64,000 bases of DNA from Globodera rostochiensis (lineage: Eukaryota > Nematoda > Chromadorea > Rhabditida > Heteroderidae). The DNA lies in contig JAEVLN010000040.1 of NCBI GenBank assembly GCA_018350325.1, forward strand, positions 310,001 to 374,000, given 5' to 3'. Position numbers and translations under genes: made by a program. This document shows, one piece after another, positions 11,826 to 41,645 of this stretch (the stretch's first letter is position 1; each line of letters begins with the position of its first letter). The notes under the pieces were generated by a model. That model searched no databases. It saw nothing but the letters and a program-made list of their open reading frames with translations, and had not been told where the DNA came from.

Positions 11826-11836
11826 CCTCTTTTCCT
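11826..11836 (-). promoter_or_regulatory. Polypurine tract
   Basis: AGGAAAAGAGG on the minus strand directly precedes the TGTAAGG start of the 3' LTR. This is the position of the plus-strand primer in LTR retroelements. Confidence 0.75.
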
Positions 11837-11937
11837 GGGGAAGATCGTCCCCGATCTGTGTCCGAAAATGGGATGCTGAGACGAATTTGGGGTTTTGCCC
11901 CCGGGCTTAAATTTTGAATGGTGGGGGCATTGAATGC

Positions 11938-14900: not shown

Positions 14901-15477
14901 CCGCAGTGTCACCAATTTGCAAAAGCCTTACCAGATCTCTTTTTACCAACTCATCGGGAATCCACATGAAAAATGGGCCAGGGCCTTTAAGCTTTCCCCC
15001 TATAATGCCTTTTGGGTGAGTTTGACAAATCAAATATTTGTTTGGCTCTTTCGCATCATCTTCTAAAGGTAAAGGGGTTGGGTCCCGAACCTGGAAATCC
15101 ATTTCACTTCCCTCCGAAAATCCGCCATTTGCAAATCCTTCCGCCACTTCTTCATTGGGCACCGCCCTTTCTCTTTCTTCCTGTAAGTCCATCCGGTTTA
15201 AAACTTCCTCCAACTCAATTGAACTTCCACGCACTTCCTCTGCACCTGACGGTGCTTCATTTAATTCCTCCCCCATTTCTTCTGCACCCGACACCAACTC
15301 TGAATTCTCTTTCTGCACGCCTAACGGCGTCTCACCGATTTCCACTTCCTCTCGTTCCTTCACCACCATTACCTCGGCTTGCGCCGTTTCCACCTCTTCA
15401 CTAACCACATGCTCACCGTCCGCCACAGTTGTCGCGTCCGCCTTCGGAGTCCGTCGTGCTGAACGTTTCTTGGTCAT
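11938..15477 (-). CDS. Superfamily-1 (UPF1-like) helicase with C-terminal zinc knuckle, in LTR element
   Basis: 1179 codons. Walker A is GTGKS at about residues 583-587. Motif Ia is VSPLNVAVCEL, motif II is VDECGQ (about 735-740), motif III LTGDKQQL (about 762-769), motif IV CYRSHS (about 808), motif V VDSIQSQEADLV (about 930-941) and motif VI ALSRPRFGLVVIGD (about 965-979). The order and the DECGQ form match SF1B helicases of the UPF1/DNA2 group, which unwind nucleic acid with ATP. The last residues are CYRCRKIGHTQRFC, a Gag-type CCHC knuckle (C-x2-C-x4-H-x4-C). The first 150 or so residues are acidic and low in complexity. The start lies 129 bases after the pol stop and in the same frame, so a separate start or separate mRNA is needed. 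A T9 tract followed by TTAAG about 20 bases upstream could be a trans-splice acceptor. A role in packaging, reverse transcription or RNA-decay evasion is conjecture. Confidence 0.85.
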   Translation of the reverse strand: MTKKRSARRTPKADATTVADGEHVVSEEVETAQAEVMVVKEREEVEIGETPLGVQKENSELVSGAEEMGEELNEAPSGAEEVRGSSIELEEVLNRMDLQEERERAVPNEEVAEGFANGGFSEGSEMDFQVRDPTPLPLEDDAKEPNKYLICQTHPKGIIGGKLKGPGPFFMWIPDELVKRDLVRLLQIGDTAVISDWKMNEKFSNLSHDMNPTDGRPSWLVQGRINTQASALKVKEIKLSVGFYRPGIITSINRYRGGGFKSATVVAAQLLCPLIVYARQLTKISQEGLRVNQVVYLEVTKITSPQEWWQSESYILPNITPFRKGDEKKAHESLVVIGMKECSESFRFPLDQFSERLMGAAAAAQRCFEEEKLAKQAVNVTLSWTRPQVRPEELQKRLSRAQLLSFEWTLETKAAVADFVEAWEEDTPVRAKVAHDNEAQFCARGRVLDVAVREDEWGTMNATVRMLLAFEAKKGYGRGWTDWESILGEVDSRVVPVPNLGGLPFREENFEKSAPSEIMKGKDPVAKILRVLMGMGEDDVRPAGRLTGNEGGAGQRLNEDQRVAHQLFLDDEVRTLFQQAPAGTGKSVSAAASIADLLKKDPKAVVLAVSPLNVAVCELVKDTMEALGNEKAPMLALFSGQGKGKYMDRIRPLGDNLLVQAVQRDGNIPGPPERKWDSNKTYKKYVQDFEEAPRRARERAAAGDLLDHNKYRVYFMTLALAEELALDWGAVSHMIVDECGQASLAAIISTLSQFRAVRKILLTGDKQQLRVHLPSQMVSVRGKFGFESVLEVLERARGIDRTVLSKCYRSHSAIVRSLDMGVYRPAGDKLVAARPDNEMGMFLSFMGPRIVTADCPIVLVHQPSAMQAENVSFSSHNPQHRETALGFLGIIQGTFPGLIQVVCFYQAERKQMAMAIENRHWNNVKVGTVDSIQSQEADLVLVLTTRTRAGRAVGAEAGKEFWADSARTTVALSRPRFGLVVIGDITLLWHKGTVWRKFVDEALRMTTVVTPEYVNLIANPWPQRSGPTIARGDGMVPMAYEFYADRDLIAQDECRAQGGMGINMVGVPFVSTGGPVAFTGQAFPPISAPTAVGPRGPVFFNSTIRPPMIRAESRPSVIHHPRVGPSARTTPYPQQHPPARASFASAAQRGQSNSNVGRRPEVICYRCRKIGHTQRFCRT

Positions 15478-15606
15478 TATAGCAGTTAATTAGTTTTGCT
15501 TAACCGAAAAAAAAAAATTTTGATTGAGTTGATGAGTTTGAACTTGAAAATGAAAGTGAAAGATCACGTGAACTAAAGGACTAAGACCTGTGGATTTTGC
15601 CTAAAT

Positions 15607-18600
15607 TTATGGTTTTGGTGAATTGTGTACGTAGCGGGTTGGTTTGGTAAGCTTAGCGCGAGATCTTAGTTCGTAACGCTGTGGGATTATTTCCTTATTT
15701 TGGGATGGGGCGGGAATATCCTTTCCGGACTCCTCTAACTCGTTATCCGATTGGTCAGGGGACATTTCGGAGGGTAAATTTGGATGAGAATGCCCCGGAA
15801 TGTCTGAAATTTCTTCAGCCGAAGCGTCACAAAGTGCCGCTTTTTCTTCGGGATCCAGACTGGGTCTGGTACATGCGGGTCCTAAATTTTCTATACATTT
15901 TTTGAGTTGGTTTACATGAACGCGCCGCGGGTTTGATTGTGGGGAGTTACAGCTTGTGATGGTAGCGTAAATTCCATCTAACTCGATAATCCTAAAAATT
16001 CCTCTCCAGGGCATATGGAATTTTTTAGAGGTGCCAATTTTGCCAGCGTAATTTTTCATAAGGACTCTATCTCCGATTGTTAGAGCCGGTGACCTAACCG
16101 TTTTGTCGTATTGGATTTTCATCCTTTCCTGAGCATCTGCATGAACTTCCGACGCGCTTTTCCACGCTCTCCGAAGAGAGGTCACTAGTTTTTGTTTGAA
16201 TTCGGTTTCGTCTGTGAATGCTATTGGATCCCTGATTTTTGGGTTCAAAATTTGGTCAACGCAGAATATGGGGTCTCTGCCGAATACTAAAAAGTATGGT
16301 GATTCCTGAGTGGATGAATGAACAGAAGTATTATAGCAAAAATTGGCATATTCTAGGAATTCGTCAAAGTCTGGTTGTTCTTTGGTTATGTACTTGGCTA
16401 AGATATTATTGAAAGTCCTAAATGTCCTTTCCGTAGCCGCGTTACCCTGCGACCAGTACGGCACGGCATATTTCTTATTAATGTACAATAGTGCACAGAA
16501 GTCTCTAAAGAATTCCGACGAAAATCCTGTAGCATTATCGCTTACTAACTCAGTGCATCCTCCAAACTTGAGGTAGCAATTTACCAAAAAGGCCTTAGCT
16601 ATGGTTTGGGACTTTGCATCAGGCAACGGAACTGATATGACATATTTGCAGAACCAGCCGATTATATTTAGAATATACTTATTGCCACGGTTTGTCACGG
16701 GAAACGGTCCGGCTAAGTCTAATCCAACTCGTGCAAACAGGGTATTTGCCGGAACCATTTGCATTTCTGCCCGATAGGCTGGTGTGGGGGAATGTCTCAG
16801 TTGGCAAGTGATACATTGCTTATACCACGTTAAAATGTCGGAATATTGAAGGGGCCAATAGTACTTACGACACTTTTTGAGTGTTTTCTTCAAGTCCATG
16901 TGTCCGCCACCTAATGGTGAACAGTGAAATGCGTCAAAGACGAGAGATCTTAGCGAGATCGGAATGTAAATTTTTGGCGGTAAATCGGAATACTTGAAAT
17001 ATAGGATACCCGAGTCCAATGCTAAGTTTTTTGCATTGACCGTTAGCGTTTCTTTGTCTCGGGAGTCCATTTCCACGGGAAATTCGCCCGTTTCCAAAAA
17101 TTTGATCAGTTTCGAGGCTTGAGGGTCATCTCTCTGTTCTTTTTTCATATCCACGTGATACGTGTGTCCATCTTTGGCTCTGAGTATTAGATTGTTGATA
17201 AAAGGGTCGAAAATTATTCTTTGTTCAATGGACAAGGATAGGCAAATTGGAAATTCTGCGATATCCTCCAGTTCGTCTAAATTTTCGACTTCTTTAATCG
17301 GAACATTTTCTTGTACCCTTGACAGGGCGTCTGCCAAACTATTCTGCTTTCCAGCAATATGCACTATTTTGATCTGGTACCCCTGCAGTTCTATTAACCA
17401 TCTGGCTAAATTGGGGTGGGCCTCTGCTTTCTTTAATAGGTATGCAAGTGGCTTGTGGTCGGTATGTAACTCAACGTCCGACATGAAAATGTACGGTCTG
17501 AATTCCCTGAGAGCATAAATTATAGCTCCTAATTCTACTTGAACTGGAGGCCACTTCCTTTCAGAAGCGCTGAGAGTTCTACTGCAATAGCTGACTGCTG
17601 AAAAGGTGCCAGTTTCGTTTTTCTGCATTAGAATTCCAGCTTGCCCTACTAAGGAGGCATCGGTGAAAATGTGAAAGGGTTTTGAGTAATCAGGAAAGGT
17701 CAGGGAGGGCTCTTGAGACAGGAGTTCCTTTATTTGGTGAAAAGCCGACTTTTGCTCTTCTTCCCAACGGAAGTTCGTATTTTTACGCGTTAGGCGAGTT
17801 AAGGGTTCAACAATTGTGGAAAAATTGGGAATGTGCCTTCTGTAGAACGATGCCATTCCCACAACTCTTTTTATTTCCTTTACATTTAGGGGTTCGGGCA
17901 AATTTTTGATGATTTCTATGCGACTCAGACTCGGTCTGTAACCCGTGGAATCTAAAATGTGTCCTAGAAAATTCATTTGTGATGTGGCGAAAATACATTT
18001 CTTGGGACTAAGCTTTAGATTAAATTGGCGAAATCTTTCAAAGACTTTACGTAAGGCCGAGATGTGCTCTTCAAATTTGGGAGATTTGGTGAAAATTAGT
18101 ATGTCATCCACGTATGCTATGACGTCGTCGTTTAGACCAGTTAAGACCCTAGCCATGGCCCTTGAGAATGCCGCAGTGGCATTCTTTAATCCAAACGGCA
18201 TGTGGGTCATTTGATAGACCCTATCCTCCGTGATTACGCCACATTTTCTTGAGGCTTCGGAACTTAACTTAATTTGCAAATAGCCACTAGATAAGTCTAG
18301 AGACGTATAAAAATGGCAATTTGCTACACGTTCCATTATGGCATCCATCCTTGGAAGTGGGTAATGATCCGGGACCGTTACCTCGTTTAGACGCCTAAAG
18401 TCTAGACACGGACGTATTCCTCCATCCTTTTTCTGGACTATGACAAACGGGGTTACCCACGGGGTGTCTGATTCAACCATGACCCCCGACTTTAAAAGTT
18501 GGTCAATATGTTTTTGAAGCTCCTCCCTGTATCTGTAGGGAGTTCTGCGAGGTCTAGCGGAGACCGGATCTTCCGTTGTCGTTATTATGTTGTGTTCACC

Positions 18601-21600
18601 TTCAGTAAATGACCCTAAGTCATATTGAGACCTGCTGAATACATCCTGAAATTCTGCACAAAGTTCTTTTAGCTTTTCTAAGTTTTGTCCTGTGACTGAG
18701 CTTTTTGAAAAGTCAATTTCAAACTGAGGATCTATTAAGATCCCATCTTTATCGGTTATGGCCATTACTATCTCTTCCCTGTCTTCCGAAAATATGCCAT
18801 TACTGATTTGTTTGATTTCACCTGCGTACGCGAGGTGTTTTCCTTTATAAATCTGAACCGGTTTTTCAGTTGGATTCATTAAGAACATTTCCACAGTCCC
18901 TTTACAGGGCGCCGATATAACAGGGATTAGCCCAAAATTTTCTTCCAGTAGTTTGTCGTCCAGGGTATGTATGCATATTGGGTTTTCTGGAAGTATACTC
19001 GAATCTATTTGAGCTTTAACAATGATCCCTAGGTTAGGAGGTATTACAAAGGAGTTTTTGGCCTCAATTCTTAGATTGTTCATTAATTCTTTGCCTGGTT
19101 TATGTGATCCTAGCGAGGTGATATAGTCACCGATCTGAAACCTTTTGTTTCGGTAATCAAAAGTCAATGGAGGTAATTTCTCTAAGACGTCACAGCCTAT
19201 TAGAGCCTTATAGTCTTGGGTTTTGAATTTAGAATCATCGACGAAATGCACGGTTACTTCAATTTCTGTGTTTCCAAGTGAAAAGGTCACAGTTCCCTTT
19301 TCTTCGAGGATAATTGTGTGGCCTGATGCACTAATCACTTTAACTGATGTGGGGTAAGATGAACAGTTCCATTTTCTGGCCATTGATTTGGGAGCTATGC
19401 TAATGCTAGCCCCAGTGTCAATTAAGCATTGAATCGGGGTGGAATTTATCCTAGCCTCAATGATTGAGCAATTCGGTGAAATGGAACCAAGAGCCGTAGC
19501 CGAAATCATATTGATTTGATGGCCACCTGGATGCTCTTTAGACTTCTCATTCGGTGCCCCTTTTTTGTTTCTCCATATGAGTCTACTTGAGACAGGTTCC
19601 CTTCTCCTTGGTCCTTTATTCTTGCTCTGATCGAAGTGCGGGTAGGAAATCCATTCCAGGAGATGTAGGAAAGGATCTTCTGCCGGATCTCCTGATTTAA
19701 ATTTTCCAAAGACCACTCGACGGGTCGACGGGACAATGGTCACCCCTCCAAACCGATCAATCAAATTAGCTCCAATAATGATTTCAAAATCTTCTTTTTC
19801 GAAGAAGCCGTCGTCCATAAAAATGAGTGGTGCCTTTCCTAAGTTATTCCCTTCTCTAGCGAAGTGAGCCCAAGCCATTGTTTTGCCTACCGGATCTTTG
19901 CCCGATGCTTCTGCTTCTTTTGGTGAAGTTCCGAACGAACGCAGTCGAGTCTTGACTGGTGTTCTGTCTGTTTCCGGGATTCTTGACAGGCTTAAAATTC
20001 GTTCAGTTGCTACTGAAGTTTCAGAAGCACTATCAACTAATGCCCGAAATTCTACACCATTCACTTTGATAAGGATGATCGGGAGATCTAAATGTGCGGG
20101 GACAAACTCTGAGTTGTCCAAATTCGCGTGATCTCTAGCTAATCGAAGCATGAACACTGATTCGCACTCATTATTGGCTTTTCTGTCTCTCTTATGAGAG
20201 TTCATTTCGCTGGCGGTGGGAGGGAGTCTATTCACCGGAACATATCGGATAGATGGAACTCTTTCCCAAGATTGAACTATTTGCGCCACTGGGTTTGGTA
20301 TTGGATTAGAAGGCATTGACTGTTGTAGTACCGTTTGTGCTAGTGCCGTTCCCGGGTTCCCTACGAGTAACCGTCCCAGGCGTCCATCTCCAGCGTATAT
20401 TTCTAGTGCAAGGAGCCCAAATCTGATCAATATGTCTGTCAGAGAAATGATTGCGATTATGGAGATACTGACTTTCCAAATGGTGGACCAATCGCCAAAT
20501 ATTTCTTTCTCCAGTTCGTCCTTTGTTCTTTCCCATCCACTGGAAAAGGATGACGACAATTTGGTGTCCCTTTGATGAATTTGGTATGTGATGTCACTCG
20601 TTTTGATCATATTGGTAACGAATGCATGGAAATTAAAGTCAGTAACATTCATCATAACTAGGTGGTGAAATGCATGAGTGGGTATTTGAGAGATTGGACT
20701 GGGAGTCCATCGAAAATTGTCATCCCTGAGTACCGTCACTTTTGAAATTTTCGCAGTGACTTGGTCAACCTCCAGAATTTCTCCATTGAGTTGAAGAGTA
20801 ATTTTCCTGGAGTCTGAACAGCTTACTTTTCGGGAAAAGGGTACAATGTCAATGGACTGAGGATTTAGGAAAGCTGCATTTTCTCCTCCATGTACTTTGA
20901 ATGCCAAGGGAATGAGTTCATAACACTCTGTTTCTGAGCTAGTTGGCACAAACCGGTAATCCTTAGCATTTAGTTGAATGCAGGGCCATATTTTGAGTAG
21001 GGAGGCTCCAGCCCTTTTAGCTACTATCTGAGTTTTCTTGAAAATCATACGGGCTAGTGTTGTCGGATCTATTAGTAGAGCCGTTTCAGCCCACCGATGT
21101 GATTCTTCCATCAGATCGCAGGTTGCGGCAGCTGCGTGCTTAAATGCATATGCCATGGTCTCTGCTATCTCAGCATCTAAATATGTTAGTTCTGATGCTA
21201 GCTGTGAACTTGTCACAAATCCTGATGTTGATCGCTTTCTTCTGGCCTGACGGCCATTCTTGCTAATTTGGTATGCCAGTTTTTGTTCAGTTACTCTAAG
21301 TGTGCCATTGCAGTTTAGTACTGTAGGTCTCCCCGGTGGATCAGTTAGGGCGAGTTGTATCTCATCTGCGAGCCAGGTGTTATTTAGTAAGTGTCCGTTA
21401 TATGACCCAAACAAGCGATATTCGCAGTTCTTTCCTGACTCTGGTTCCCAAATTAGTTGAGTTTTGTCACTCATTGTACAACTACCCCTTCCATAAGGAC
21501 AGTCTTCGAGTTGACCTAATGGAGAGTGGACAATCTTGTCACCAAAACGAGAGTTAACAAGTGTTTTAAAGAGGTAGCAATTCTCGCTTGAGCTTTCTGC

Positions 21601-23184
21601 CCATGAGAAAGAGCCAAGTAACCACATGCGTGGGGTTAGGTCAATCTGATTGTCAGTGAGATATAGCTCATCCTTTTGATTTAGCGAACCCAAATAACAC
21701 TTTTTGAGGCTGATCATAAGTGTGCATTCTTCGAGTGGGACTTTGAGGTGTTCTGTATCATGAAATTTCTCAACGGGGACTCCAGTTAGGGATGTGTATT
21801 TGGAGATCTTTTTCCTTACTATTCGACATGCCCACGCCTCAGTGCTGTATTCGAGAAAATTGGGAGTATAAATTCGCCTTCGCTGGGGAACAGGAACATG
21901 AGTATGTCCGAACGCAGAGAGTGGACATCCACGAAATCTAGGAAGTTCCCAGGTGGCTCCTTGAAGTTTGGTCTGACAGATCAGTGGATGTTCGGGAATG
22001 TGTGAATGCAATGCGTCAATGTTTATTGCAAAAAGCATAAGAAAGGTTAGAGACAACATTAGAATGCGACTTAATTGGGGACCGATGCTAGTGGATCCCC
22101 AATTTGAAATTTTTATGGGGGATGGTGGGGAAACGTCATCACATTCTTCCGATTCGACCAATTCAAATTTTGATGACTGGTCAGGGGTTTCGGGTATGAG
22201 AGCGTTGCATGAATTATTTTGGTTACCCGCTGGTGAGAAATGAGATGGCGCGGGTGACTCTGTGATTTTCATCCTCTGGATAAGTTGTTCCGCCAATGCG
22301 CCAACGTCTACACCCAAATTTTGTGAAGAACTGCTTTGACCAGTTTCATTGATCTGGTGTGGATAACATGGCTGAACCATATTCACGGGCGCATAGTAGG
22401 GGGCTCGACCGACCGGGTATGAATTAGGGGCGCCTGCTCCCTGGAAACCCGCTCGTCTGTCCCGACAGTCATATGCTCGGTGTCCTAACCGACCACAATG
22501 AAAGCATTTTGGTCGACCGCTCCAATTGCGGTCGTTCACATTTCGGTTATCCCTGGGGCGAAATCTGTCTCTTCGCTGGTCCATCATATTGTTTCTCCAT
22601 GGCTGGACCCGATTACTCCCACTCGGTCCTCCTCCGAAGTTACCGTGATTGGGAATACCTTGATTCCCGCCTCTCGACATTTCAAACCTAACCTGACGGT
22701 TATTCACAGTATTGGGATTTCTGAATGTTTGAAAGTTTGGAGATTGCCAAGAGTTCACGTTGGGCGAGGGTAATCGATTGATCACAGGCTTGGGTTGGCT
22801 AAGAGATGCGGGACTCAGAGCTTGAACAGCAAATTTAAGTGGGTCTGAGACATTGTTTTCGTTGGTGTTGCTTAACAGAAGCTCTAGCTCCTGGGCTTGT
22901 GAAAAGACTGCTTCAAAATCTTGGTTTTTGGTGACTCCAGTTAGTCTGGTTAGGAATGCTAAGTTGGGTTTGACCCTTTCTAAGAATTCATCTCTAAGTC
23001 TGGACTGGATTAGAGCCTCACTCTGACCGGCACAGACGGTCGAGACCAAAGGCGAAAGCCTGGCCATAAACTCGCGAACAGTTTCAGATTCGCGTTGCCT
23101 ACAGGTCATGAGCGCGCGTTTGGTCATTTCCTTTCGCTGAGGGGAGTCTAACTTTTCTCGAATGGCATCTAGTGCATTCTCCAC
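15607..23184 (-). CDS. Gag-Env-like-Pro-Pol polyprotein of LTR element
   Basis: 2525 codons, uninterrupted. Gag C-terminal region with a CCHC knuckle (CFHCGRLGHRAYDC, about 226-239). An envelope-like glycoprotein (about 372-935): hydrophobic signal-like stretch, N-glycosylation sites, a furin-type RRKR near 648 and a transmembrane segment near 900-928. Two protease-like domains: a degenerate one with LVDSAS near 1047 and GANLIDRFG, and a canonical one with LIDTGAS near 1255 and IGCDVL. RT has LDFRRLN and YVDD (near 1690). RNase H has FTDAS (near 1838). Integrase has an HHCC finger (about 2085-2125) and the D, D, E residues in GLDLAG, SDNATG and ATERTF. No chromodomain is seen. The start given is the first ATG of the open frame; the true Gag start is in the upstream ORF, one frame away. 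Products act in particles and, after cleavage, in reverse transcription and integration; an envelope would act at membranes. Confidence 0.9.
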   Translation of the reverse strand: MENALDAIREKLDSPQRKEMTKRALMTCRQRESETVREFMARLSPLVSTVCAGQSEALIQSRLRDEFLERVKPNLAFLTRLTGVTKNQDFEAVFSQAQELELLLSNTNENNVSDPLKFAVQALSPASLSQPKPVINRLPSPNVNSWQSPNFQTFRNPNTVNNRQVRFEMSRGGNQGIPNHGNFGGGPSGSNRVQPWRNNMMDQRRDRFRPRDNRNVNDRNWSGRPKCFHCGRLGHRAYDCRDRRAGFQGAGAPNSYPVGRAPYYAPVNMVQPCYPHQINETGQSSSSQNLGVDVGALAEQLIQRMKITESPAPSHFSPAGNQNNSCNALIPETPDQSSKFELVESEECDDVSPPSPIKISNWGSTSIGPQLSRILMLSLTFLMLFAINIDALHSHIPEHPLICQTKLQGATWELPRFRGCPLSAFGHTHVPVPQRRRIYTPNFLEYSTEAWACRIVRKKISKYTSLTGVPVEKFHDTEHLKVPLEECTLMISLKKCYLGSLNQKDELYLTDNQIDLTPRMWLLGSFSWAESSSENCYLFKTLVNSRFGDKIVHSPLGQLEDCPYGRGSCTMSDKTQLIWEPESGKNCEYRLFGSYNGHLLNNTWLADEIQLALTDPPGRPTVLNCNGTLRVTEQKLAYQISKNGRQARRKRSTSGFVTSSQLASELTYLDAEIAETMAYAFKHAAAATCDLMEESHRWAETALLIDPTTLARMIFKKTQIVAKRAGASLLKIWPCIQLNAKDYRFVPTSSETECYELIPLAFKVHGGENAAFLNPQSIDIVPFSRKVSCSDSRKITLQLNGEILEVDQVTAKISKVTVLRDDNFRWTPSPISQIPTHAFHHLVMMNVTDFNFHAFVTNMIKTSDITYQIHQRDTKLSSSFSSGWERTKDELEKEIFGDWSTIWKVSISIIAIISLTDILIRFGLLALEIYAGDGRLGRLLVGNPGTALAQTVLQQSMPSNPIPNPVAQIVQSWERVPSIRYVPVNRLPPTASEMNSHKRDRKANNECESVFMLRLARDHANLDNSEFVPAHLDLPIILIKVNGVEFRALVDSASETSVATERILSLSRIPETDRTPVKTRLRSFGTSPKEAEASGKDPVGKTMAWAHFAREGNNLGKAPLIFMDDGFFEKEDFEIIIGANLIDRFGGVTIVPSTRRVVFGKFKSGDPAEDPFLHLLEWISYPHFDQSKNKGPRRREPVSSRLIWRNKKGAPNEKSKEHPGGHQINMISATALGSISPNCSIIEARINSTPIQCLIDTGASISIAPKSMARKWNCSSYPTSVKVISASGHTIILEEKGTVTFSLGNTEIEVTVHFVDDSKFKTQDYKALIGCDVLEKLPPLTFDYRNKRFQIGDYITSLGSHKPGKELMNNLRIEAKNSFVIPPNLGIIVKAQIDSSILPENPICIHTLDDKLLEENFGLIPVISAPCKGTVEMFLMNPTEKPVQIYKGKHLAYAGEIKQISNGIFSEDREEIVMAITDKDGILIDPQFEIDFSKSSVTGQNLEKLKELCAEFQDVFSRSQYDLGSFTEGEHNIITTTEDPVSARPRRTPYRYREELQKHIDQLLKSGVMVESDTPWVTPFVIVQKKDGGIRPCLDFRRLNEVTVPDHYPLPRMDAIMERVANCHFYTSLDLSSGYLQIKLSSEASRKCGVITEDRVYQMTHMPFGLKNATAAFSRAMARVLTGLNDDVIAYVDDILIFTKSPKFEEHISALRKVFERFRQFNLKLSPKKCIFATSQMNFLGHILDSTGYRPSLSRIEIIKNLPEPLNVKEIKRVVGMASFYRRHIPNFSTIVEPLTRLTRKNTNFRWEEEQKSAFHQIKELLSQEPSLTFPDYSKPFHIFTDASLVGQAGILMQKNETGTFSAVSYCSRTLSASERKWPPVQVELGAIIYALREFRPYIFMSDVELHTDHKPLAYLLKKAEAHPNLARWLIELQGYQIKIVHIAGKQNSLADALSRVQENVPIKEVENLDELEDIAEFPICLSLSIEQRIIFDPFINNLILRAKDGHTYHVDMKKEQRDDPQASKLIKFLETGEFPVEMDSRDKETLTVNAKNLALDSGILYFKYSDLPPKIYIPISLRSLVFDAFHCSPLGGGHMDLKKTLKKCRKYYWPLQYSDILTWYKQCITCQLRHSPTPAYRAEMQMVPANTLFARVGLDLAGPFPVTNRGNKYILNIIGWFCKYVISVPLPDAKSQTIAKAFLVNCYLKFGGCTELVSDNATGFSSEFFRDFCALLYINKKYAVPYWSQGNAATERTFRTFNNILAKYITKEQPDFDEFLEYANFCYNTSVHSSTQESPYFLVFGRDPIFCVDQILNPKIRDPIAFTDETEFKQKLVTSLRRAWKSASEVHADAQERMKIQYDKTVRSPALTIGDRVLMKNYAGKIGTSKKFHMPWRGIFRIIELDGIYATITSCNSPQSNPRRVHVNQLKKCIENLGPACTRPSLDPEEKAALCDASAEEISDIPGHSHPNLPSEMSPDQSDNELEESGKDIPAPSQNKEIIPQRYELRSRAKLTKPTRYVHNSPKP
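20385..22085 (-). other. Envelope-like glycoprotein segment within the polyprotein
   Basis: About 565 residues between the Gag zinc knuckle and the first protease-like domain. It has a signal-like hydrophobic run (MLSLTFLMLFAI), about 270 residues of cysteine-containing ectodomain, a furin-type site (RRKR), a second ectodomain part, and a membrane anchor (WKVSISIIAIISL and on) with a short basic-containing tail. The cysteine content is low for a phlebovirus-type Gc protein. The pattern after the cleavage site recalls glycoproteins of the chuvirus type, but this is weak. It is described only, as an old copy in a genome. Confidence 0.7.
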
Positions 23185-23224
23185 GCTGTCTTTTTTGTTA
23201 TTGGGCAGTTTGTCGAAAATTTTC

Positions 23225-23788
23225 CTAATGGGACCCTCGAGAGAGAAATTTGAGTCTGCCTAGTTTTTCCTTTTCAGACCAGGTCGTTCCGGCATATTCT
23301 AAAAGATCTCGAAATTTCTGAGCCCAATTATCAAAAGCGGTAAGGTTCTCATCCCTACAGGCTGGTAATTGGCTGGCAAAAGGGTCTACGGTAGTGAGAA
23401 CATTAACACTAAGGCATTCGTCAGTTTCCTGTTGTGCGGTTACAACAGTGGCATTTCTATTCCCGGGAGTCCCAAAGTCTTCATTGTCAGACTCATCCCC
23501 ATCTTGGTTCTTCAAGTCTTCTACACTTTCGACCACCTGGTCAATGCGGATTGTAAGGGTTTCCATGTTTGTATTAATCTCATTTGCCATATCGTTTATG
23601 GCGTTAGTGTTTTGCACCACCCTCCTATTGATGCGCCTTAGGCTCCGATTTGCAATGTCCTCTAACCGGACTGTGCCCTGCTGAATTCTTTCCACCAATG
23701 CTATCGGTGCAGGAGTGTTTGGATTAGGACTTGGACTTGAGCATACTGCCCTATCTACTGCAGCTATGTTTATTTCGGATTCATCCAT
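23225..23788 (-). CDS. Gag N-terminal ORF of LTR element, frameshifted from the rest
   Basis: 187 codons from an ATG. It starts with an acidic, low-complexity head, then has a coiled-coil-like region (INDMANEINTNMETL) and a capsid-like start (FDNWAQKFRDLLEYAGTTW). The frame ends at a TAG about 40 bases before the next ORF's first ATG. The protein sense continues in the other frame across a short CT-rich stretch at about 23,236-23,245. Either an indel (sequence error or decay) or a programmed frameshift explains this. The N-terminal half of capsid is therefore here and the rest is in the long ORF. Confidence 0.7.
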   Translation of the reverse strand: MDESEINIAAVDRAVCSSPSPNPNTPAPIALVERIQQGTVRLEDIANRSLRRINRRVVQNTNAINDMANEINTNMETLTIRIDQVVESVEDLKNQDGDESDNEDFGTPGNRNATVVTAQQETDECLSVNVLTTVDPFASQLPACRDENLTAFDNWAQKFRDLLEYAGTTWSEKEKLGRLKFLSRGSH

Positions 23789-26700
23789 TTTCTTACTACC
23801 GGATGGCAGTTCAGACTTAGTCTAGTGTTTTGTTTTATGTCGCCTTAGTTTGGTTCTTTCTGTTAGTCTTACGACTACTCAGGTTCCGTTTCGGTTTAGT
23901 GATAGCTTAGACTGGGTTTGGAGATTGATGAGATGGGCAGGAAATAAAAGCTTGCGCCAATAAATAACTTGTTGATCGCCTGTGAATGAACTCAAGTTAA
24001 AGTGGGTAAGTTTTGATTGGAAGACGCGAGCAAATAAAAGGATGATTTTTTGTTGAGCGCTTAAACGTTTTGTGTTGCGAAGAGAATGAAATGGGAGCTA
24101 TGGGAGGGGAGAACGAGGTGGGGGAAATACATTAGCTTCCCACCAGTGGCGGCAGATAGGATCTTCCCAGGTATCCATTAGCGTCGCAATGTACAAATGG
24201 ATGTTGTAATATAGAGGGAGGGAGGGGACACAGCAGTAACTGGCTGAGAAAAATTTAAAACACCAAAGGTGAAAGTTCGGTAAGTACCGTAGTATAGTGG
24301 ACAAGTGCGCGAACTTTTGGACCGAATTTCAAATACAATAGCGCTGCCAATTTGGTCAGTTACCCCCTGTTTTCATTTCTATCATTATGGGGCTCTCATT
24401 CCACCCCAAAAGGTGCCCACCAGAACTGCACTGTCGACACTCTACACCACACGCCACGCATCGGTTCACGGATTCAATTCGCTCCATACTTGGCCTAAAA
24501 TAAAATTTAATAATGGGTTACGTACATTTTAGGTGACTTGAGATGGTTTCTGACTTTCCGGGGAAGAGTACTCACGATTTTTGTGCTGTGTCTAATCGGT
24601 CAGACAATTTTCTTATCAGCTTTAAAATGATTGATTTGTCTCAAACTTGTCTAAAATTTATTTTATTTGGATTTAGTCCAAAATTTGGGTTGTCCTATGC
24701 ATTTGCATCATCGAGGGGATAGGAGCGAAATTTGCAATGTCATCATAAATTTTGTGAGTGGTGATGGGTATGCAAAACGGCAGAAATGCGTTGTGTTGGT
24801 GGGGGGGGGAAGGAGTTAGGAACGCCAAACATTTCCTTCGTCTTCACTAAAGACGCGGATCACCAACGAAATAGTGTGGGCGATTTGACAGAGAGTCATA
24901 CTCTACGAGGCATATTGCCCAATGGCCATCTCTTCTCTCCGTAAACCACTGCGATGAGTTTTGTTCCTCCAGTGACCAACAACAGCGTTCCTAATGGCGA
25001 CATTTTGGACAAACGATGAAGGGTGGGGGGGGGAAGAAGAGAAGAACGGAATATGAATGGGTAGAGGGCCATTAGTGATTGTTTAGAAATGAGTTCAGAA
25101 TTTTGTTTGTTGTGAGTAATTTTTCGAAAAATTTCTGAGAAGAGAAAAAAAATTGTTTTGTGCACTTATTTGATGGCATTTCTTTGCCTCTGACAAGGCT
25201 TCGAAGCCCCTTTTCGGTGTGACCAGATGAATAGAGTGCTTTACTTTTAGAGATGGGGTTGCTAAACTAGTCTAGCACTAAGATTTTATGTTTTGGGTTA
25301 CACACATATCAACCAAAAAGCAGAAAACATGTCCCTTTTTTTCATTGAAAGTTTGGCTAATTCCGAACCTGAAAATGGCTATCCTCTTAATCCTGAGATG
25401 GCGCACGTCGTCAGCCCACGTCATGGCGCGCATTGGTTCTTGCACTTGAGCCCTTGGTTCTTGTACTTGAGCTGCCCTTTTTGCCTGCCTTCATTAATGA
25501 AAAAAAAAGCAAAAGAACTCTATTAGGTTACACTGATTTCACCATTTTCTTCCTCTTTTTCGGAAAACTTCTGTGTGCGAACAATAAAAATAATTTTATT
25601 AGCCCAAACAGGCCTTCTTTTCGCATAAATGAAATAACTGAGAGTACGATTGATTTGATAGAAGAAGCCGTCGTGAGTTAAGTAAAAAAAAAATTTGTTT
25701 TTGTTGTTTTTTTTTTTTGTTTCTTTTTTTTTGAACCATGTTTTGGCCGCACTGAACCTCCTCTCGGCTTCTTACTCAGATTAACTGAAACCTCTTGGCT
25801 AAGTTCGGGGAGTATAGAGTATTTGTTAGGGTTACGTGACAGGGGGCCTTGAGGTCGCCGGGGAAATTCACAGCACGTCAAAACACCAAAAATTTGGGAT
25901 GCCCAAAGTTTTATTTATTCTTTTGTCTTTATTTATTTTATTTTTTATCTCTTTTTTTTCTTTCTTATCTTTCTTTTTTTTTTTTTAATATTACTAGGCC
26001 ATTGATCAGATTAGCATATAGAGTGATTGGAATAAGTAGATGGAGCGAAAAGAAAGTCCGTTTGGGAGAACTCCAAAATTTTCTCTCACCAAAAACCGAA
26101 TAATTTCTGGCGTATTATTTGATTTTTCGAAGGCACAATGCCAAAACTATTTTTGTGCTATAATTCGTCTAATTTGAATTTCGCTTTTGCCAAGTTTAGC
26201 GAGGTGCGTATTTCAAAGTCCTCTTACGAGGTTCAAGTGATAAGCATGACTTGTCCGACTTTTCAGCTTCTCTAAAGATGATTCGGTGAAATTTGGCCTT
26301 TCCCCGTGATTCTAATAATTTGCTTTGCCCACATAGTTATTCTCCGTACTCCATTTTCCCGTGCATTTTCTTACACTTGCTTGCCTTTTTTCGGCTTTCC
26401 TCCACCTTTTGTGGGCTTTCAGTCTTTGCTGCTTTTGGAGTCACTTATGGAGTCGAATTTCAGCTCTTTTATTGGCCGATCAATCCCTTCCTTAATGGGG
26501 CTTCTTTCTTCACTCTGATTTTATCATCATCTCTTTTCGGTTTAATGGGGCTTTTCTCTTTACTCTGATTTTGTCATTTCTCTTTTCGGTTTAATGGGGC
26601 TTTTCTCTTTACTCTGATTTTGTCATTTCTCTTTTCGGCTTAATGGGGCTTTTCTCTTTACTCTGATTTTGTCATTTCTCTTTTCGGCGGCCGCCTTTTC

Positions 26701-26820
26701 TTTACTCCTGATGGAGTTTCTTTTTCCTCATGCATGGAATTAAAATTTACTTACCACGTGCACGTGGAGGTTCTTACCCAGCATTGCCTTCGGCGTCCAT
26801 TTTTGAACCAAGTAGTTCAA
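23789..26820 (-). other. Long 5' leader of the LTR element
   Basis: 3.0 kb between PBS and gag without a convincing coding ORF on either strand. Contents include poly(G) and poly(T) tracts and a tandem repeat at 26494-26692. Leaders this long suggest packaging or translation-control elements or a lost gene; nothing specific can be assigned. Confidence 0.6.
26494..26692. repeat. Tandem repeat of about 49 bp in the leader
   Basis: Four copies of AATGGGGCTTTTCTCTTTAC followed by a TCTGATTTTGTCATTTCTC-type segment. The first copy is divergent; copies 2-4 are almost identical. Confidence 0.85.
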
Positions 26821-26838
26821 AACCATCCGGTGCTACCA
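26821..26838 (-). promoter_or_regulatory. Primer-binding site (initiator tRNA-Met-like)
   Basis: TGGTAGCACCGGATGGTT starts one base after the CA end of the 5' LTR on the minus strand. It begins with TGG, as required to pair with a tRNA CCA end. It resembles the complement of the eukaryotic initiator tRNA-Met 3' end with about two mismatches in the acceptor stem. Confidence 0.7.
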
Positions 26839-26839
26839 G

Positions 26840-27185
26840 TGAAGCGGGAGGGCCCTTCCCGGGATCGGGGCGCACGAAATATTAACCATACATTTATTGT
26901 CTCATCTCAAACCTCAAACTTGGGTAATTAAACCCATAGTCATTTCATGACGATTACATGATGGAATGGGATTGGAGTGGAGAGAACATTTGAGTGGGGA
27001 TAAGCATAAAGTCACACGGGGAAGGGGTGAGTTCATCAATCACATCGCCGGCGGTGAATGAGTGAATGACAAAGTGAACGGAGTTGATCGGTGGGGACGG
27101 AGGCGGACCTTTCCCGGGATGGGAAATTTGCCGGAAGCGGGAAGGACCAATTAAATGCTTTGAACAATTCATACTGTGCCTTACA
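26840..27185 (-). repeat. 5' LTR
   Basis: 346 bases, TG...CA ends, collinear with 11491-11825. The main differences are an extra 7 bases next to SL1 and a changed block just upstream of it. SL1 starts about 251 bases into the LTR, leaving about 73 bases that include an AATAAA, so SL1 lies near where R would begin. Confidence 0.9.
26913..26934 (-). promoter_or_regulatory. SL1 spliced-leader sequence inside the 5' LTR
   Basis: Full 22-base match to SL1 on the element sense strand, followed by a repeat of its last seven bases (GTTTGAG) and then ATGAGAC. The 3' LTR lacks the extra seven bases. Confidence 0.85.
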
Positions 27186-27250
27186 GTATAGAACCCTCGA
27201 CCCCAAAGTAGCATCACCCTAAAAGTTTAACCACTAGGCCATGTTCAAAC
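27186..27250 (-). other. tRNA-like or SINE-like fragment abutting the 5' LTR
   Basis: On the minus strand TGGCCTAGTGGTTAAAC resembles a pol III A box, and GAGGGTTCTATAC, about 30 bases on, resembles a B box that is cut by the LTR start. It may be a tRNA-derived repeat. No cloverleaf could be drawn with confidence. Confidence 0.35.
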
Positions 27251-27294
27251 TTTACGTATATCTTTGAAACCAAAGAAAATCGTTTTAATAAATT

Positions 27295-27435
27295 TTCTTT
27301 CAGCAGTCCGTATCCGGATATATCCGAAAAACCATATCCGTTATCATTTCGAATCCGGATATATCCGAAAAATCATATCCGTTATCCGTCCATATCCGGA
27401 TTTATCCGCGGATATCCGGATATCCGTGAGCACGC
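27295..27435. repeat. ATATCCGGATAT-rich repeat
   Basis: Repeated ATCCGGATATATCCGAAAA and ATATCCGTTATCC motifs, partly palindromic, in irregular tandem. Confidence 0.7.
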
Positions 27436-31332: not shown

Positions 31333-34300
31333 CCTTTGCCCTGGGAGTTGCGCGTGCGTCAAGAATGTAAAGAAGAAGCGCAAATTGTGTGCAAAGAATG
31401 CGGCTGGGCGCAATGCGTGCCATCGGACGCTGAAGACACGAACTTCGACCCAAACTACGAATGCTGCCCAAATGTTCGAAAAGGGCACAAGGCATACTGC
31501 TGCCCCCTGGGCTACGAGTTCAAATGCTGTGCTGTGGTAGGCATTTGGGGCGAGTAAATGTGGAGTTTAGTAAATACTCAAACTTAAAATAAAATTAAAA
31601 GCACCTTCTATTATTTATTTCCTCTCATAGTTGCCGCAGCAGAAGTACGCCTTGAAGCCGACGCATTTCGTAAAATTAAATTAAACACTCCGATTAAATA
31701 TTCTCACTATTATTGCTACAGCCGGAGACCATCGAAGAATTTGAAAAGACATGCAAAAATGGCAAAATTTGCATTTGCGGTTTAAATTCTCACGGTTTAA
31801 TGCGCGGATTTTGCTGCGACAAAAGCTCGAATTGTGGATGTTGTGGCACGGTAAGAGTTTGGTGTGCAAAATTAACATAAATGATTTTTGAATTATGCTT
31901 GCCAGTTAGACTTTGATGATTGAAAGCCCAATTACCGTATTTCCTATAACTAGGGATCGGATTTATATACACTAAAAATGGTCAAAACATGCATTTTTAA
32001 CAATTTTTTGCCAAAATATGCAAGAGATGCAATTTCAAAATGTTCAAAAACAAAAAAGACCAACTAACAACACCTTTTTTTAGCTAATTTTTTTTTCATC
32101 GAAACTTAATTGGACTAAATGCATATCAGTTCCCTACCTATAATAGAGCCACCCCCCCCCCCCCTCAATTAGAGCACCCCTCTCTAAAAGAGCCCCCCTT
32201 TTTGGGGGAGGGAGGGGGGGGGAGGGGGGGCGGGGGAGGGATTGAACAATATGCAGAGCCCCCGGGGACTCTATTATAGGAAATACGGCATCTATCAAAT
32301 TTTATCTTAATTTGTTAAAATTTTAATTTGGTCATTCCAGGATCCGACAATATCAAAGAACCCAGCGGTATTATTTTTAGTACTTACTTTCTTTACTACA
32401 AATACTATTCTTGAAGCTGGACCATGAGATAGCTAGAGAGGAGGCATCGTGCAAAGCTGAAATTATAGCAAAGGTGTTGAATACAAAACGTGCAATCTGC
32501 GAGTGGACTGTCATGAAGCATTCTTATCTTAATCTTGCTTGTTGTGGCGAAGACCTGAAATTTATATACGAGACATCTGACTATTGGGGTAATATTTTTG
32601 TTTGTCTACTAAAAAACCAGTAAAAAAATAAATTATTAAATTAAAAGAGAAGATGGATTTTCTCCCAAAAGTCAATTTTCGCTGCAAAATCTTCCAAAAT
32701 GCATGCATTCGATATTTTGCTTGTTAAATAATTTTAGGTCGACATGCATATTATCCTACCATACACAGCCACTACGATGCAGTATGGTGGCTTTATTTTT
32801 ATTGCAGGAAGAAGAACTTACCACAGCCGTGCAAAGACGACATATTGGAGAAGGCACTTACGGGACCGCTGGATAGTTTTGCTGGATGCGATGATAATGT
32901 ACACCCAGCTTCTGATTGTTGTGTCGAACACTACGCACTTTCCCTTAAGTGGAAGAACGACTTGCCTAGCGTTAAAGTTGTTTTAAATAAGAACGCTTAT
33001 TATTCTTTAATTATAGCCGGCAAAAATACTCATATTTTACACAATAAAATTCAAATTCTAGTTTTTTTTTAAACAAAACGACTGTACTTAGTTGGCCGGT
33101 TCCTCCTAAAACCTTTTTTTGAGCAAATCATGAATTTGGAATCTTTTCTTTCTTCATGCTATGAATTTTATTAAATTTTATTGCCGATTTCGTATTAAGT
33201 TGTGTTAACTTACATTAAATAATATGTTAATTTAATTAATTAGGACGGCAATGTAAGGCCGAAGGATGGACAAGCGTGCCAAAAGCAGATTGATGAAGAA
33301 GCTCGCAGGCAGCACTTGAGGGCGGGACATTGCATATGGGCGGAAGGATGGAAAGCCTCTAAATGTTGCCATGAAAACTACAAGCTACGGATTCAGGACG
33401 ATTACTCTTATGTGAGTTTTACTTTTTTAAATAAGTACAACCCCGAGGAATGAAGTTTTAACTTTGACCTCGGAATATAGCTTACAAATTAAGGCTTTTT
33501 CGCTAATATTTGGGTACATTAATTTCCCCCAAGGTCTTAAAACAAGAGTACGAAAGCGACAGCGGCTGGCATTGGGTAATGTTTTTCTTCATTTCTCTAA
33601 TTTGTTGAAAGATTACTAATATATTTATTTATCCCGTTTAGATAATGCACTCAATTCCTGAACTCACATCCACATACGTATGTTTTTTTGGGATATACTC
33701 ATTTTCAAACATTGTTGACTGGAATTTAATAGGATGTATACGTATTATGAATTGTTGACAACAATTACAGTAATAGATAATGTATAAATGAATTGTTGAC
33801 AACAATTACAGTAATAGATAATGTATTAATGAATTGTTGACAACAATTACAGTAATAGATAATGTATTGATGAATTGTTGACAACAATTACAGTAATAGA
33901 TAATGTATAAATGAATTGTTGACAACAATTACAGTAATAGATAATGTATTAATGAATTGTTGACAACAATTACAGTAATAGATAATGTATTAATGAATTG
34001 TTGACAACAATTACAGTAATAGATAATGTATTAATGAATTGTTGACAACAATTACAGTAATAGATAATGTATTAATGAATTGTTGACAACAATTACAGTA
34101 ATAGATAATGTATTGATGAATTGTTGACAACAATTACAGTAATAGATAATGCATTAATGAATTGTTGACAACAATTACAGTAATAGATAATGTATTAATG
34201 AATTGTTGACAACAATTACAGTAATAGATAATGTATTAATGAATTGTTGACAACAATTACAGTAATAGATAATGTATTGATGAATTGTTGACAACAATTA

Positions 34301-36769
34301 CAGTAATAGATAATGTATTAATGAATTGTTGACAACAATTACAGTAATAGATAATGTATTAATGAATTGTTGACAACAATTACAGTAATAGATAATGTAT
34401 TAATGAATTGTTGACAACAATTACAGTAATAGATAATGTATTGATGAATTGTTGACAACAATTACAGTAATAGATAATGTATTAATGAATTGTTGACAAC
34501 AATTACAGTAATAGATAATGTATTAATGAATTGTTGACAAAAATTACAGTAATAGATAATGTATAAATGAATTGTTGACAACAATTACAGTAATAGATAA
34601 TGTATTAATGAATTGTTGACAACAATTACAGTAATAGATAATGTATTAATGAATTGTTGACAACAATTACAGTAATAGATAATGTATTGATGAATTGTTG
34701 ACAACAATTACAGTAATAGATAATGTATTGATGAATTGTTGACAACAATTACAGTAATAGATAATGTATTAATGAATTGTTGACAACAATTACAGTAATA
34801 GATAATGTATTAATGAATTGTTGACAACAATTACAGTAATAGATAATGTATTAATGAATTGTTGACAACAATTACAGTAATAGATAATGTATTGATTGTT
34901 GACAACAATTACAGTAATAGATAATGTATTAATGAATTGTTGACAACAATTACAGTAATAGATAATGTATTAATGAATTGTTGACAACAATTACAGTAAT
35001 AGATAATGTATTGATGAATTGTTGACAACAATTACAGTAATAGATAATGTATTGATGAATTGTTGACAACAATTACAGTAATAGATAATGTATTAATGAA
35101 TTGTTGACAACAATTACAGTAATAGATAATGTATTAATGAATTGTTGACAACAATTACAGTAATAGATAATGTATTAATGAATTGTTGACAACAATTACA
35201 GTAATAGATAATGTATTGATGAATTGTTGACAACAATTACAGTAATAGATAATGTATAATGAATTGTTGACAACAATTACAGTAATAGATAATGTATTAA
35301 TGAATTGTTGACAACAATTACAGTAATAGATAATGTATAAATGAATTGTTGACAACAATTACAGTACTAGATAATGTATTAATGCATTGTTTACAACAAT
35401 TACAGTAATAGATAATGTATAAATGAATTGTTGACAACAATTACAGTAATAGATAATGTATAAATGAATTGTTGACAACAATTACAGTACTAGATAATGT
35501 ATTAATGCATTGTTGACAACAATTACAGTAATCTCTTAAATCAGGGATTGGAGGGCAAAAGGTACATTTGGAGGAATGTGACAACGGTAAGTAGGCGATA
35601 AGCTTAATTACCTAATTAACTGTCATTTAGGCTGAAATGGTTCGGGCATTGGATGAGAGTTCGGACTGCAAACAAAAAGAAGTGTACTGCGCCTGCGGCA
35701 CGTTGCATTTCGATCAAATAATGAACGGAATGTGCTGCGACAGCGACACTTCCTGTGCATGTTGTTCAAAGGTGACAAACCCAAAGAAATATTTAAATAA
35801 TTTAAATGATTTTGCTCGACATTATTGAAATCCAAGACAAATATATTTAAATTATAGATTTAAATACAGCTTTTTACATTTTCCTTAATAATTATTTGGA
35901 TAATTACTATATTCTTTTTAAATATTGTATTTTGTAATTAGGCCAAAGTTTAAAACTTAACATCAAATTGATATTTGCAACTTTAGGATTCGACAATTTC
36001 AAAGCTTCCAGAGGTATTATTTTTGCTTTGACACCCCATAAAAGATTGATTATCTTGGGGAAGTGGGTGCGCAAACCTCGGCAAGTGCAAGAGTGCAAAG
36101 ACCAAATGCTTCTTGAACTTGGTGGACAAGAGCAAAAAACAGAGGCATTCTGCTTGTGGTCGGAAGGGTGGAAGGACGACAAATCAAAATGTTGCGACAA
36201 AGACTATCAGCTTGTCCTCATGGACAAACGATATGCCGATTATAAAATCCGCGTGAGATTTTTTCTTTGAAATTAGACGATCTATAAATTAACCTTTTTA
36301 GGTCGCTGAGACTCCATTTGCGGTAAGTGTTCATAATCGTGGCTTCTTTAGTCACGAAGTATCCAATTGGTTCGGATTTTCCTAAATCCGTCACTCTGAT
36401 AAAAAAGAATGGCGTTAAATTTGGCCATCCACAAATGCAATTTAACCGTTTTTATCACGGGTCTTGTTGAACTAAAGAATATCCGGAATTGGCCCCTCCC
36501 ATTTGATCGGTTGCCGCTAAAGTTTAAAATAAATAGAGCCATTAGCTAATTTTTGGTATTGATTGATCCAATCACTTTTTATTGGTTTTCCCGCCAGGCC
36601 ATTCGCGGCTTCGACCGGCACCACCCCTTTTGTACCGCCCGTCGGCCGTGGATTCATCCGAAAGTGTGCGCCTTCGAGTGGTATTGGGTAATTACTTTAC
36701 TTTTTATTTTAATTATGTCCCCTAATTACAAGAATTCTGACCTTTCAGGTCCCATATCTGAGGCCATAG
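31333..36769 (+). CDS. Modular cysteine-rich protein, 16 exons, N-terminus missing
   Basis: Exons 31333-31536, 31631-31669, 31722-31850, 32341-32367, 32417-32588, 32738-32976, 33244-33411, 33534-33575, 33642-33677, 35545-35586, 35631-35771, 35987-36013, 36064-36252, 36302-36322, 36598-36687 and 36749-36769 (TAG). They join in frame to 528 residues. Every junction except one is phase 0. The same module recurs: a 43-47-residue exon with CxCG...CCD...CxCC (exons 3 and 11), a 27-base mini-exon (DPTISKNPA and DSTISKLPE), then exons with C...CxW...CCxxxYxL (exons 5, 6, 7 and 13). Exon 1 has CKECG and YCCPLGYEF. Many disulfides suggest a secreted protein, but no signal peptide is seen because the 5' end is not located. 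I do not recognise the family. The exon 6 donor is uncertain by 6 bases. Confidence 0.6.
31934..32287. repeat. Foldback element with CCGTATTTCCTATAA ends
   Basis: The ends CCGTATTTCCTATAA (left) and TTATAGGAAATACGG (right) are perfect inverted repeats of 15 bases. The interior has poly(C) and G-rich tracts around AGAGCCCCCC. It lies in the intron between exons 3 and 4 of the cysteine-rich gene. No clear TSD. Confidence 0.65.
33749..35530. repeat. 41-bp minisatellite, about 43 copies
   Basis: Period 41, for example GAATTGTTGACAACAATTAC followed by AGTAATAGATAATGTATTAAT. Each copy holds the perfect palindrome ATTGTTG-A-CAACAAT. Copies are nearly identical, with A/T/G variants at one site and a few shortened copies. 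It fills the intron between exons 9 and 10 of the cysteine-rich gene. Confidence 0.95.
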
Positions 36770-40905: not shown

Positions 40906-41645
40906 GCAAAAAACTTAGCGGTTAGGCCTAAACCAACCTGGCTTGGGGTTCGTTAGGCTTAAGCCTATGCCACCCTGGCTTGGGGTTCATTAAGCTTAGG
41001 CCTAAACCAACCTGGCTTTGGGTTCGTTAAGCTTAGGCCTAAGCCACCCTGGCTTGGGGTTCGATAGGCTTAGGCCTAAGCAAACCCTGGCTTGGCTTGG
41101 GTTCGTTAAGCTTAGGCCTAAGCCACCCTGGCTTGGGGTTCGATAGGCTTAGGCCTAAGCAAACCCTAAACCCTGGCTTGGCTTGGGTTCGTTAAGCTTA
41201 GGTCTAAGCCACCCTGGCTTGGGGTTCGATAGGCTTAGGCCTAAGCAAACCCTGGCTTTGGGTTCGTTAAGCTTAGGCCTAAGCCACCCTGGCTTTGGGT
41301 TCGTTAAGCTTAGGGCTAAGCCACCCTGGCTTGGGGTTCGATAGGCTTAGGCCTAAGCAAACCCTGGCTTGGCTTGGGTTCGTTAAGCTTAGGCCTAAGC
41401 CACCCTGGCTTGGGGTTCGATAGGCTTAGGCCTAAGCAAACCCTGGCTTGGCTTGGGTTCGTTAAGCTTAGGCCTAAGCCACCCTGGCTTGGGGTTCGAT
41501 AGGCTTAGGCCTAAGCAAACCCTGGCTTGGCTTGGGTTCGTTAAGCTTAGGCTTAAGCCACCCTGGCTTGGGGTTCGATAGGCTTAGGCGTAAGCAAACC
41601 CTGGCTTGGGTTCGTTAAGCTTAGGCCTAAGCCACCCTGGCTCGC
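40906..41645. repeat. Minisatellite built on TTAGGCCTAAGC
   Basis: About fifteen copies of blocks such as GGTTCGTTAAGCTTAGGCC and TAAGCCACCCTGGCTTGGG, with two alternating block types (GTTAAGC and GATAGGC). Each copy contains TTAGGC and its complement GCCTAA back to back as TTAGGCCTAA. TTAGGC is the nematode telomere hexamer. Confidence 0.85.

Follow-up and report, generated by a model that had tools for sequence, protein, structure and literature searches.

The window, a 64,000-nucleotide (nt) stretch of the nematode Globodera rostochiensis genome (contig JAEVLN010000040.1, positions 310,001 to 374,000), carries a long terminal repeat (LTR) retrotransposon on its minus strand, each LTR of which contains an exact copy of the spliced leader 1 (SL1) exon. 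The 5' LTR (26838–27185) and the 3' LTR (11489–11825) form a direct repeat with 92% identity, and all the features described below for this element are on the minus strand, which is the element sense. As claimed in an earlier note on this DNA, SL1 is complete and in element sense in both LTRs, with 22 of 22 bases matching at 26913–26934 and at 11557–11578, and no match with up to three mismatches was seen in 100 dinucleotide shuffles of the window. SL1 starts 251 nt into the 5' LTR, in agreement with the claimed distance of about 250. The predicted AATAAA is also present in both LTRs, albeit slightly closer than the suggested 16 or so nt, i.e., 14 nt past SL1 in the 5' LTR (26893–26898) and 7 nt in the 3' LTR (11544–11549). 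In the anatomy that we propose, SL1 would be the first 22 nt of the repeated region (R); the upstream part of the LTR (26935–27185), in which no TATA-like motif was found, would be the unique 3' region (U3) and hold the promoter and the outron, and the remaining part (26838–26912) would correspond to the rest of R and the unique 5' region (U5). No target-site duplication was seen at the outer ends of this LTR pair; a GTTC duplication is present at another SL1-carrying element, L009/L010 (L numbers denote loci and C numbers contigs).

The two SL1 copies do not have the identity of SL RNA genes. The bases that follow them are GTTTGAGATGAGAC, which has the GT without the rest of the SL RNA intron, and ATGAGAC, and no SL RNA intron with a splice donor and an Sm site was found. 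An Rfam scan gave no matches in 11400–27300, which is a weak test because the SL RNA loci L028, L040, L011, and L014 also gave no SL1 match. Directly 3' of SL1, the 5' LTR contains GTTTGAG (26906–26912), a second copy of the SL1 3' end that is missing from the 3' LTR in the LTR alignment. Since it is found in one LTR only, this extra copy is most simply read as the probable result of slippage after insertion. TTTGAG repeats following SL1, also seen at L034 and L053, were considered as footprints of splicing at the inner AG of SL1, an idea that is no more than a lead because slippage, at least in the window, accounts for the repeat. A tandem repeat with ~50-bp and 98-bp units lies just inside the 5' LTR (26491–26687).

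The interior of the element comprises a 187-residue open reading frame (ORF) (23225–23788), which has no Pfam match and is gag-like by position only, a 2,525-residue ORF (15607–23184) in which Pfam detects a zinc knuckle, a Monjiviricetes-type fusion glycoprotein, an aspartyl protease, a reverse transcriptase (RT), an RNase H, and an integrase, and, upstream of the 3' LTR, a 1,179-residue superfamily-1 helicase ORF (11938–15477; Pfam AAA_11/AAA_12). Matches to PF17919, PF00078, PF17921, and PF13975 are above the Pfam cut-off, and the rve (integrase) match of the 2,525-residue ORF is below it. PF05380 was not among the matches listed for the window contig (C35). By its domain content, the element is a Ty3/Gypsy-like (Metaviridae) LTR retrotransposon, with Gypsy-type protease, RT, RNase H, and integrase zinc-binding domains, which differs from Ty3/Gypsy by the SL1 in its LTRs, the in-frame Monjiviricetes-type glycoprotein domain, and the helicase ORF. 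That glycoprotein domain (chuvirus type) stands in frame between zinc knuckle and protease within 15607–23184, seemingly an unusual place for an envelope. The helicase ORF, sitting between pol and the 3' LTR, displays a C-terminal CCHC motif when read by eye; it is 100% identical to a G. rostochiensis entry and 60–61% identical to three entries from Heterodera trifolii/H. schachtii.

SL1 copies of this kind are not confined to the window. The 92.6-Mb G. rostochiensis assembly contains 122 exact copies of SL1 and none of a reversed control pattern, and tolerating up to three mismatches adds 24 SL1-like places (4 for the control). Exact SL1 was found neither in viral contigs nor in prokaryote genomes (zero copies in each). 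We read 92 of the 122 places as sequence; the other 30 are further units of two tandem arrays, assigned to SL RNA genes by position alone. When SL1 was masked and its flanks were linked by blastn (>60 bits), 11 clusters were obtained. One of these consists of 24 SL RNA genes or near copies, in which SL1 is followed by GTACTTG, so that together with the 30 array units, 54 of the 122 copies are in SL RNA genes. The remaining 68 form ten clusters, with 24, 9, 8, 8, 6, 5, 3, 2, 2, and 1 members, numbered 1 to 10 in that order of size, among which the window family is cluster 7. The trait extends beyond the single element of the earlier note and, as detailed below, is shared by two superfamilies. 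SL RNA genes and LTRs have no flank-to-flank blastn link above 60 bits. Over all 122 copies, SL1 is followed by G in 70 and by A, C, or T in 52, and never by GTAA, and the bases upstream of it vary from cluster to cluster. Judged from these comparisons, the block common to the clusters is the 22-nt exon itself.

To define the repeats, 25 LTR pairs were compared over ~750 nt on each side of SL1. Ten pairs (clusters 1, 4, 6, 7, and 9) displayed both LTR ends, and 18 at least the 3' LTR end. With clusters 2 and 3 represented among these 18, the number of clusters with LTR pairs comes to seven; clusters 5, 8, and 10 have no resolved pair. With the exception of the window pair, the two LTRs of a pair are 97–100% identical.

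Many of the carriers are BEL/Pao elements (Belpaoviridae), for which Peptidase_A17 (PF05380) is a marker. This domain has at least 49 matches in the genome, eight of which lie, by coordinates, between paired SL1 LTRs (on C3, C9, C14, C22, C31, C56, C66, and C67) and two beside a single SL1 LTR (C16 and C80). A Peptidase_A17 pol between SL1 LTRs, which is the likeness to BEL/Pao, could be shown for clusters 1, 2, 4, 6, and 9 but not for 3, 8, and 10. In the one ~4.8-kb cluster-1 element that we read inside, there is a DUF1759/DUF1758 gag and RT was not found; this element has the appearance of a non-autonomous derivative of BEL. At least 71 matches to PF17919 exist genome-wide, and the Gypsy LTRs read are those of the window family only. 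These findings show that LTR-borne SL1 occurs in two superfamilies, BEL/Pao and Ty3/Gypsy. It is absent from six BEL loci of the same genome in which an LTR-like end could be recognized. In ten 3-kb stretches at SL1-less BEL loci, no 22-mer in sense orientation had fewer than seven mismatches to SL1 and the best antisense one had six (7–10 in 50 shuffles), and in six further stretches none had fewer than eight. A tree of 31 BEL pol pieces requires five label changes for its 10 SL1-associated rows, at least four of them on well-supported branches, where for most of the other 21 rows the "no SL1" label means no exact SL1 nearby. On this tree, SL1 may have had more than one origin within BEL, or a single one.

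We sampled LTR copies by searching with LTR pieces that exclude SL1, query copies being counted. Of the 46 matches, 37 have an exact SL1, 1 a near-exact one, and 5 have lost the site, while 3 without exact SL1 were left unread. The cluster-1 promoter query gave 21 matches, with exact SL1 in 18 by coordinates, one mismatch in L156, and deletions removing the site in L154 and L155. For cluster 4, eight of nine matches have exact SL1 (the other, unread, has not); for cluster 2, eight of ten (the two others being weak partial matches without exact SL1, also unread); and for the window family, three of six, the remaining three being truncated before the end of SL1. At L043, SL1 is exact even though the flanks are only 80% identical, and 0.8^22 is 0.007. 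SL1 is therefore conserved while its flanks diverge, the point that the earlier note had proposed to check by aligning LTR copies.

The position of SL1 within the LTR is also constant. A poly(A)-type signal starts 2–22 nt past SL1 in 21 of the 24 representatives (17 AATAAA, 3 GATAAA, and 1 AATAAT); the exceptions are L026, where GATAAA overlaps the last SL1 base, and L043 and L029, which have no close signal. If R starts at SL1, this spacing would make R short. Likely promoters are found far upstream. A TATA box is located between −311 and −431 in 10 of the 12 representatives of cluster 1 (all but L026 and L072) and in three of the four of cluster 2 (all but L027), about 400 nt upstream of SL1 in both clusters, and all five cluster-3 representatives have CATAAATA at about −520, while no TATA box lies near −30 of SL1 in the largest cluster. 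Among eight cluster-1 LTRs, mean pairwise identity in 22-nt bins reaches 0.93 in the TATA bin and drops to 0.51 and 0.58 in the bins flanking SL1, with no bin other than SL1 and TATA exceeding 0.78; the value of 1.00 in the SL1 bin follows from these eight rows having been picked for exact SL1. Upstream of SL1 (−150 to 0), AG has an observed/expected ratio of 0.37 and GA one of 1.07, to be compared with AG ratios of 0.78 in SL1-less BEL LTR-like stretches and 0.73 in the rest of the window.

A hairpin directly upstream of SL1 in all families was considered and rejected, as folding brings one into contact with SL1 in some members of clusters 1, 4, and 7 alone. By eye, an inverted repeat of the type GTGATCACC...GGTGATCAC, ~30–57 nt upstream of SL1 in L020, L021, L026, L066, and L072, seems to be kept among cluster-1 LTRs.

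R of retroviruses and LTR retrotransposons has its 5' end where transcription starts. In the elements studied here, an exact exon stands just before a poly(A)-type signal, between dissimilar flanks and, in two clusters, far downstream of the promoter, and the simplest account of this combination is that R has a trans-spliced start. We consider it slightly better than an even bet that the LTR-borne SL1 forms the 5' part of R and that the genomic RNA is SL1 trans-spliced. Transcription would start upstream, inside the LTR, and the stretch from there down to SL1 would be an outron and be removed, the SL1 small nuclear ribonucleoprotein (snRNP) joining the host SL1 exon at the AG that ends the LTR-borne SL1. 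The RNA would then begin with SL1-R'-U5 and end with U3-SL1-R'-poly(A). Since SL1-R' would be on both RNA ends, the condition for first-strand transfer would be satisfied. Strong-stop DNA would end in a copy of SL1 and be transferred onto the SL1 of the 3' LTR, by which SL1 would be rewritten from host SL RNA at each cycle. From the DNA, we infer the trans-splicing of the RNA, the choice of AG, the strand transfer, and the re-copying of SL1. Two proposals of the earlier note, a link to host trans-splicing and SL1 at the functional start of R, gain support at this level; its other option, an element RNA that starts at SL1, becomes less likely with a TATA box ~400 nt upstream in clusters 1 and 2 and none near −30 in the largest cluster. 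The note had also reckoned an upstream start with an internal, non-conserved SL1 as grounds for giving up the idea; at the DNA level, two clusters do appear to have the upstream start and internal SL1, and conservation goes the other way.

Several observations weigh against a trans-spliced R. No conserved TATA box is seen in clusters 4, 5, 6, 7, and 9, and the window family has none recognizable. The scarcity of AG upstream of SL1, which would fit a trans-spliced R, lacks specificity: depletion is about as strong on the downstream side (0.47), and CT, the reverse complement, is depleted upstream as well (0.57). Nematode acceptors usually read TTTCAG. In SL1, the terminal AG is part of GAG and the inner one of AAG, and across clusters no AG is found consistently just before SL1. 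Finally, six BEL loci with a recognizable LTR-like end have no SL1-like sequence there; these ends were called by a primer-binding site–like motif and a poly(A) signal rather than by an LTR pair, and two of the six represent one family.

The lack of a conserved TATA box in those five clusters suits the main rival explanation, which is that SL1 acts as DNA. RNA polymerase II would start at the first G of SL1, as in SL RNA genes, with no trans-splicing, the leader having been captured as part of a promoter. Hannon et al. reportedly found in 1990 that the 22-nt SL serves the Ascaris SL RNA gene as a promoter element, and an initiator would also account for the position of SL1 at the expected beginning of R, shortly ahead of the poly(A)-type signal. 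We nevertheless regard initiation at SL1 as unlikely. Outside SL1, conservation in the largest cluster peaks at the TATA box ~400 nt upstream, the flanks of SL RNA genes and LTRs share no blastn link above 60 bits, and the conserved block stops at the exon boundary.

If SL1 were recopied from the host at each cycle, as a trans-spliced R predicts, strong-stop DNA of one family might also land on the LTR of another. Among 595 pairs of 35 representatives, 7 resemble each other upstream of SL1 (z > 8) but not downstream of it (z < 5), and 10 show the reverse. Local alignments stop at the last base of SL1 for L078 versus the L030 group and for the L066 group versus the L025 group; that of L043 with the window LTRs stops at base 22 with one and at base 28 with the other, and that of L027 with L078 begins 3 nt before SL1. 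L027 itself extends from SL1 to the LTR end, without a recognizable U3, a shape expected for inserted strong-stop DNA, which is a possible origin, as is a chance deletion. Other comparisons speak against switching at SL1. Homology also breaks away from it, at −145/−166 for L036/L059 and at −266/−176 for L034/L052, and comparisons of L066 and L069 keep a low downstream likeness rather than none (z 3.9–4.9). L009 was first taken to switch at SL1, since it aligns with L024 only from SL1 on; we discarded this case because L009 aligns through SL1 with other cluster-1 LTRs (from −53 with L021 and across the LTR with L072), so that it may reflect divergence. The loss of L009/L024 and the breaks away from SL1 lower the odds of the broader reading, in which the 5' end of R is set by SL1 trans-splicing in both superfamilies and the host-recopied SL1 serves as an adaptor for cross-family strong-stop landing, shuffling LTR halves. 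We offer it tentatively, as a possibility that is rather more likely to be wrong than right.

Alternatively, LTR pairs that switch at SL1 could reflect DNA recombination at a shared sequence, and homology breaks elsewhere too. SL1 would have been captured once or a few times, and either kept by a selected RNA feature (translation, cap recruitment, or evasion of silencing) or spread by recombination or gene conversion, any trans-splicing being outside replication. This we find more doubtful still than initiation at SL1, because it does not explain why clusters whose flanks differ have SL1 at one set place ahead of the poly(A)-type signal, or why the exon alone was retained. That the window SL1 is a one-off insertion into, or recombination with, an SL RNA gene, or else an assembly artifact, is extremely improbable and refuted by the counts. 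Nothing was found in its favor, 68 copies belong to the ten clusters that are not SL RNA genes, GTAA follows none of the SL1 copies, the LTRs of a pair can be as much as 100% identical, and L009/L010 has the GTTC target duplication.

Related phenomena are known, each differing from what we describe. In Caenorhabditis elegans, the spliced 2.4-kb messenger RNA (mRNA) of Cer1 receives SL1 at an internal acceptor, where its 8-kb gag-pol RNA is reported not to be trans-spliced. Cer1 is thus another retrotransposon whose mRNA receives SL1, and the difference lies in the internal acceptor; an SL1 in the Cer1 LTR is not mentioned in the portion of the paper available (PMC3315495). In Hydra, ~30% of transposon Iso-Seq reads carry an SL, which we count in favor of a trans-spliced R; the likeness is the SL on transcripts, and the difference is that genomic SL copies inside the elements are not described in the accessible text (PMC12220107). 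Dinoflagellate retrogenes with a relict SL are, according to the available parts of that report, similar in that SL remnants were fixed in DNA via reverse transcription, and different in that the tags sit on host retrogenes and are not part of an LTR (PMC12014239). Available extracts of other papers describe an LTR transcript that competes for an SL acceptor (PMC4558846) and marginally trans-spliced worm mRNAs that can form SL-like 5' hairpins (PMC9984361). A BEL/Pao survey uses neither "spliced" nor "SL1" in its main text (PMC3118150). Among the matches listed from the open-licence literature, no title or beginning of an abstract dealt with an SL exon inside LTRs, which is weak evidence of novelty. 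Our claim is further limited by Tas of Ascaris, said to have been described by Felder in 1994 and cited in the BEL/Pao survey, and by the bdelloid elements Juno and Vesta, all of which may be precedents.

If R is indeed trans-spliced, its start would be set by host RNA processing, reverse transcription would be tied to trans-splicing, and the leader would be cap donor and strand-transfer end at once. Such elements would offer a genomic test of the ways in which mobile elements manage in hosts that remove outrons. They might also explain why SL1 copies that do not belong to an SL RNA gene have been published. Of the 180 SL1 loci of Heterodera glycines, 22 have an Sm motif nearby, and the remaining 158 are left unexplained in the part of the paper available (PMC6362198), a finding that we also count in favor of trans-splicing. 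On the practical side, caution is needed when transcripts of cyst nematodes are called by their SL, since retrotransposon DNA can be picked up.

Several minor observations were made along the way. SL1 RNA genes alternate with 5S ribosomal RNA in two arrays (L028 on C12 and L040 on C23), with units of ~1.23 and 1.57 kb. At L011–L013 and L044–L046, SL1 is followed by a variant intron, GTACTTGAAAATG..., and these are possibly divergent SL RNA genes or pseudogenes. Elsewhere in the window, there are a 41-bp tandem array (33583–35067), a 37/42-bp array (40917–41681), and a higher-order repeat with 132-bp units within copies of ~1.2–1.35 kb (54259–63969).
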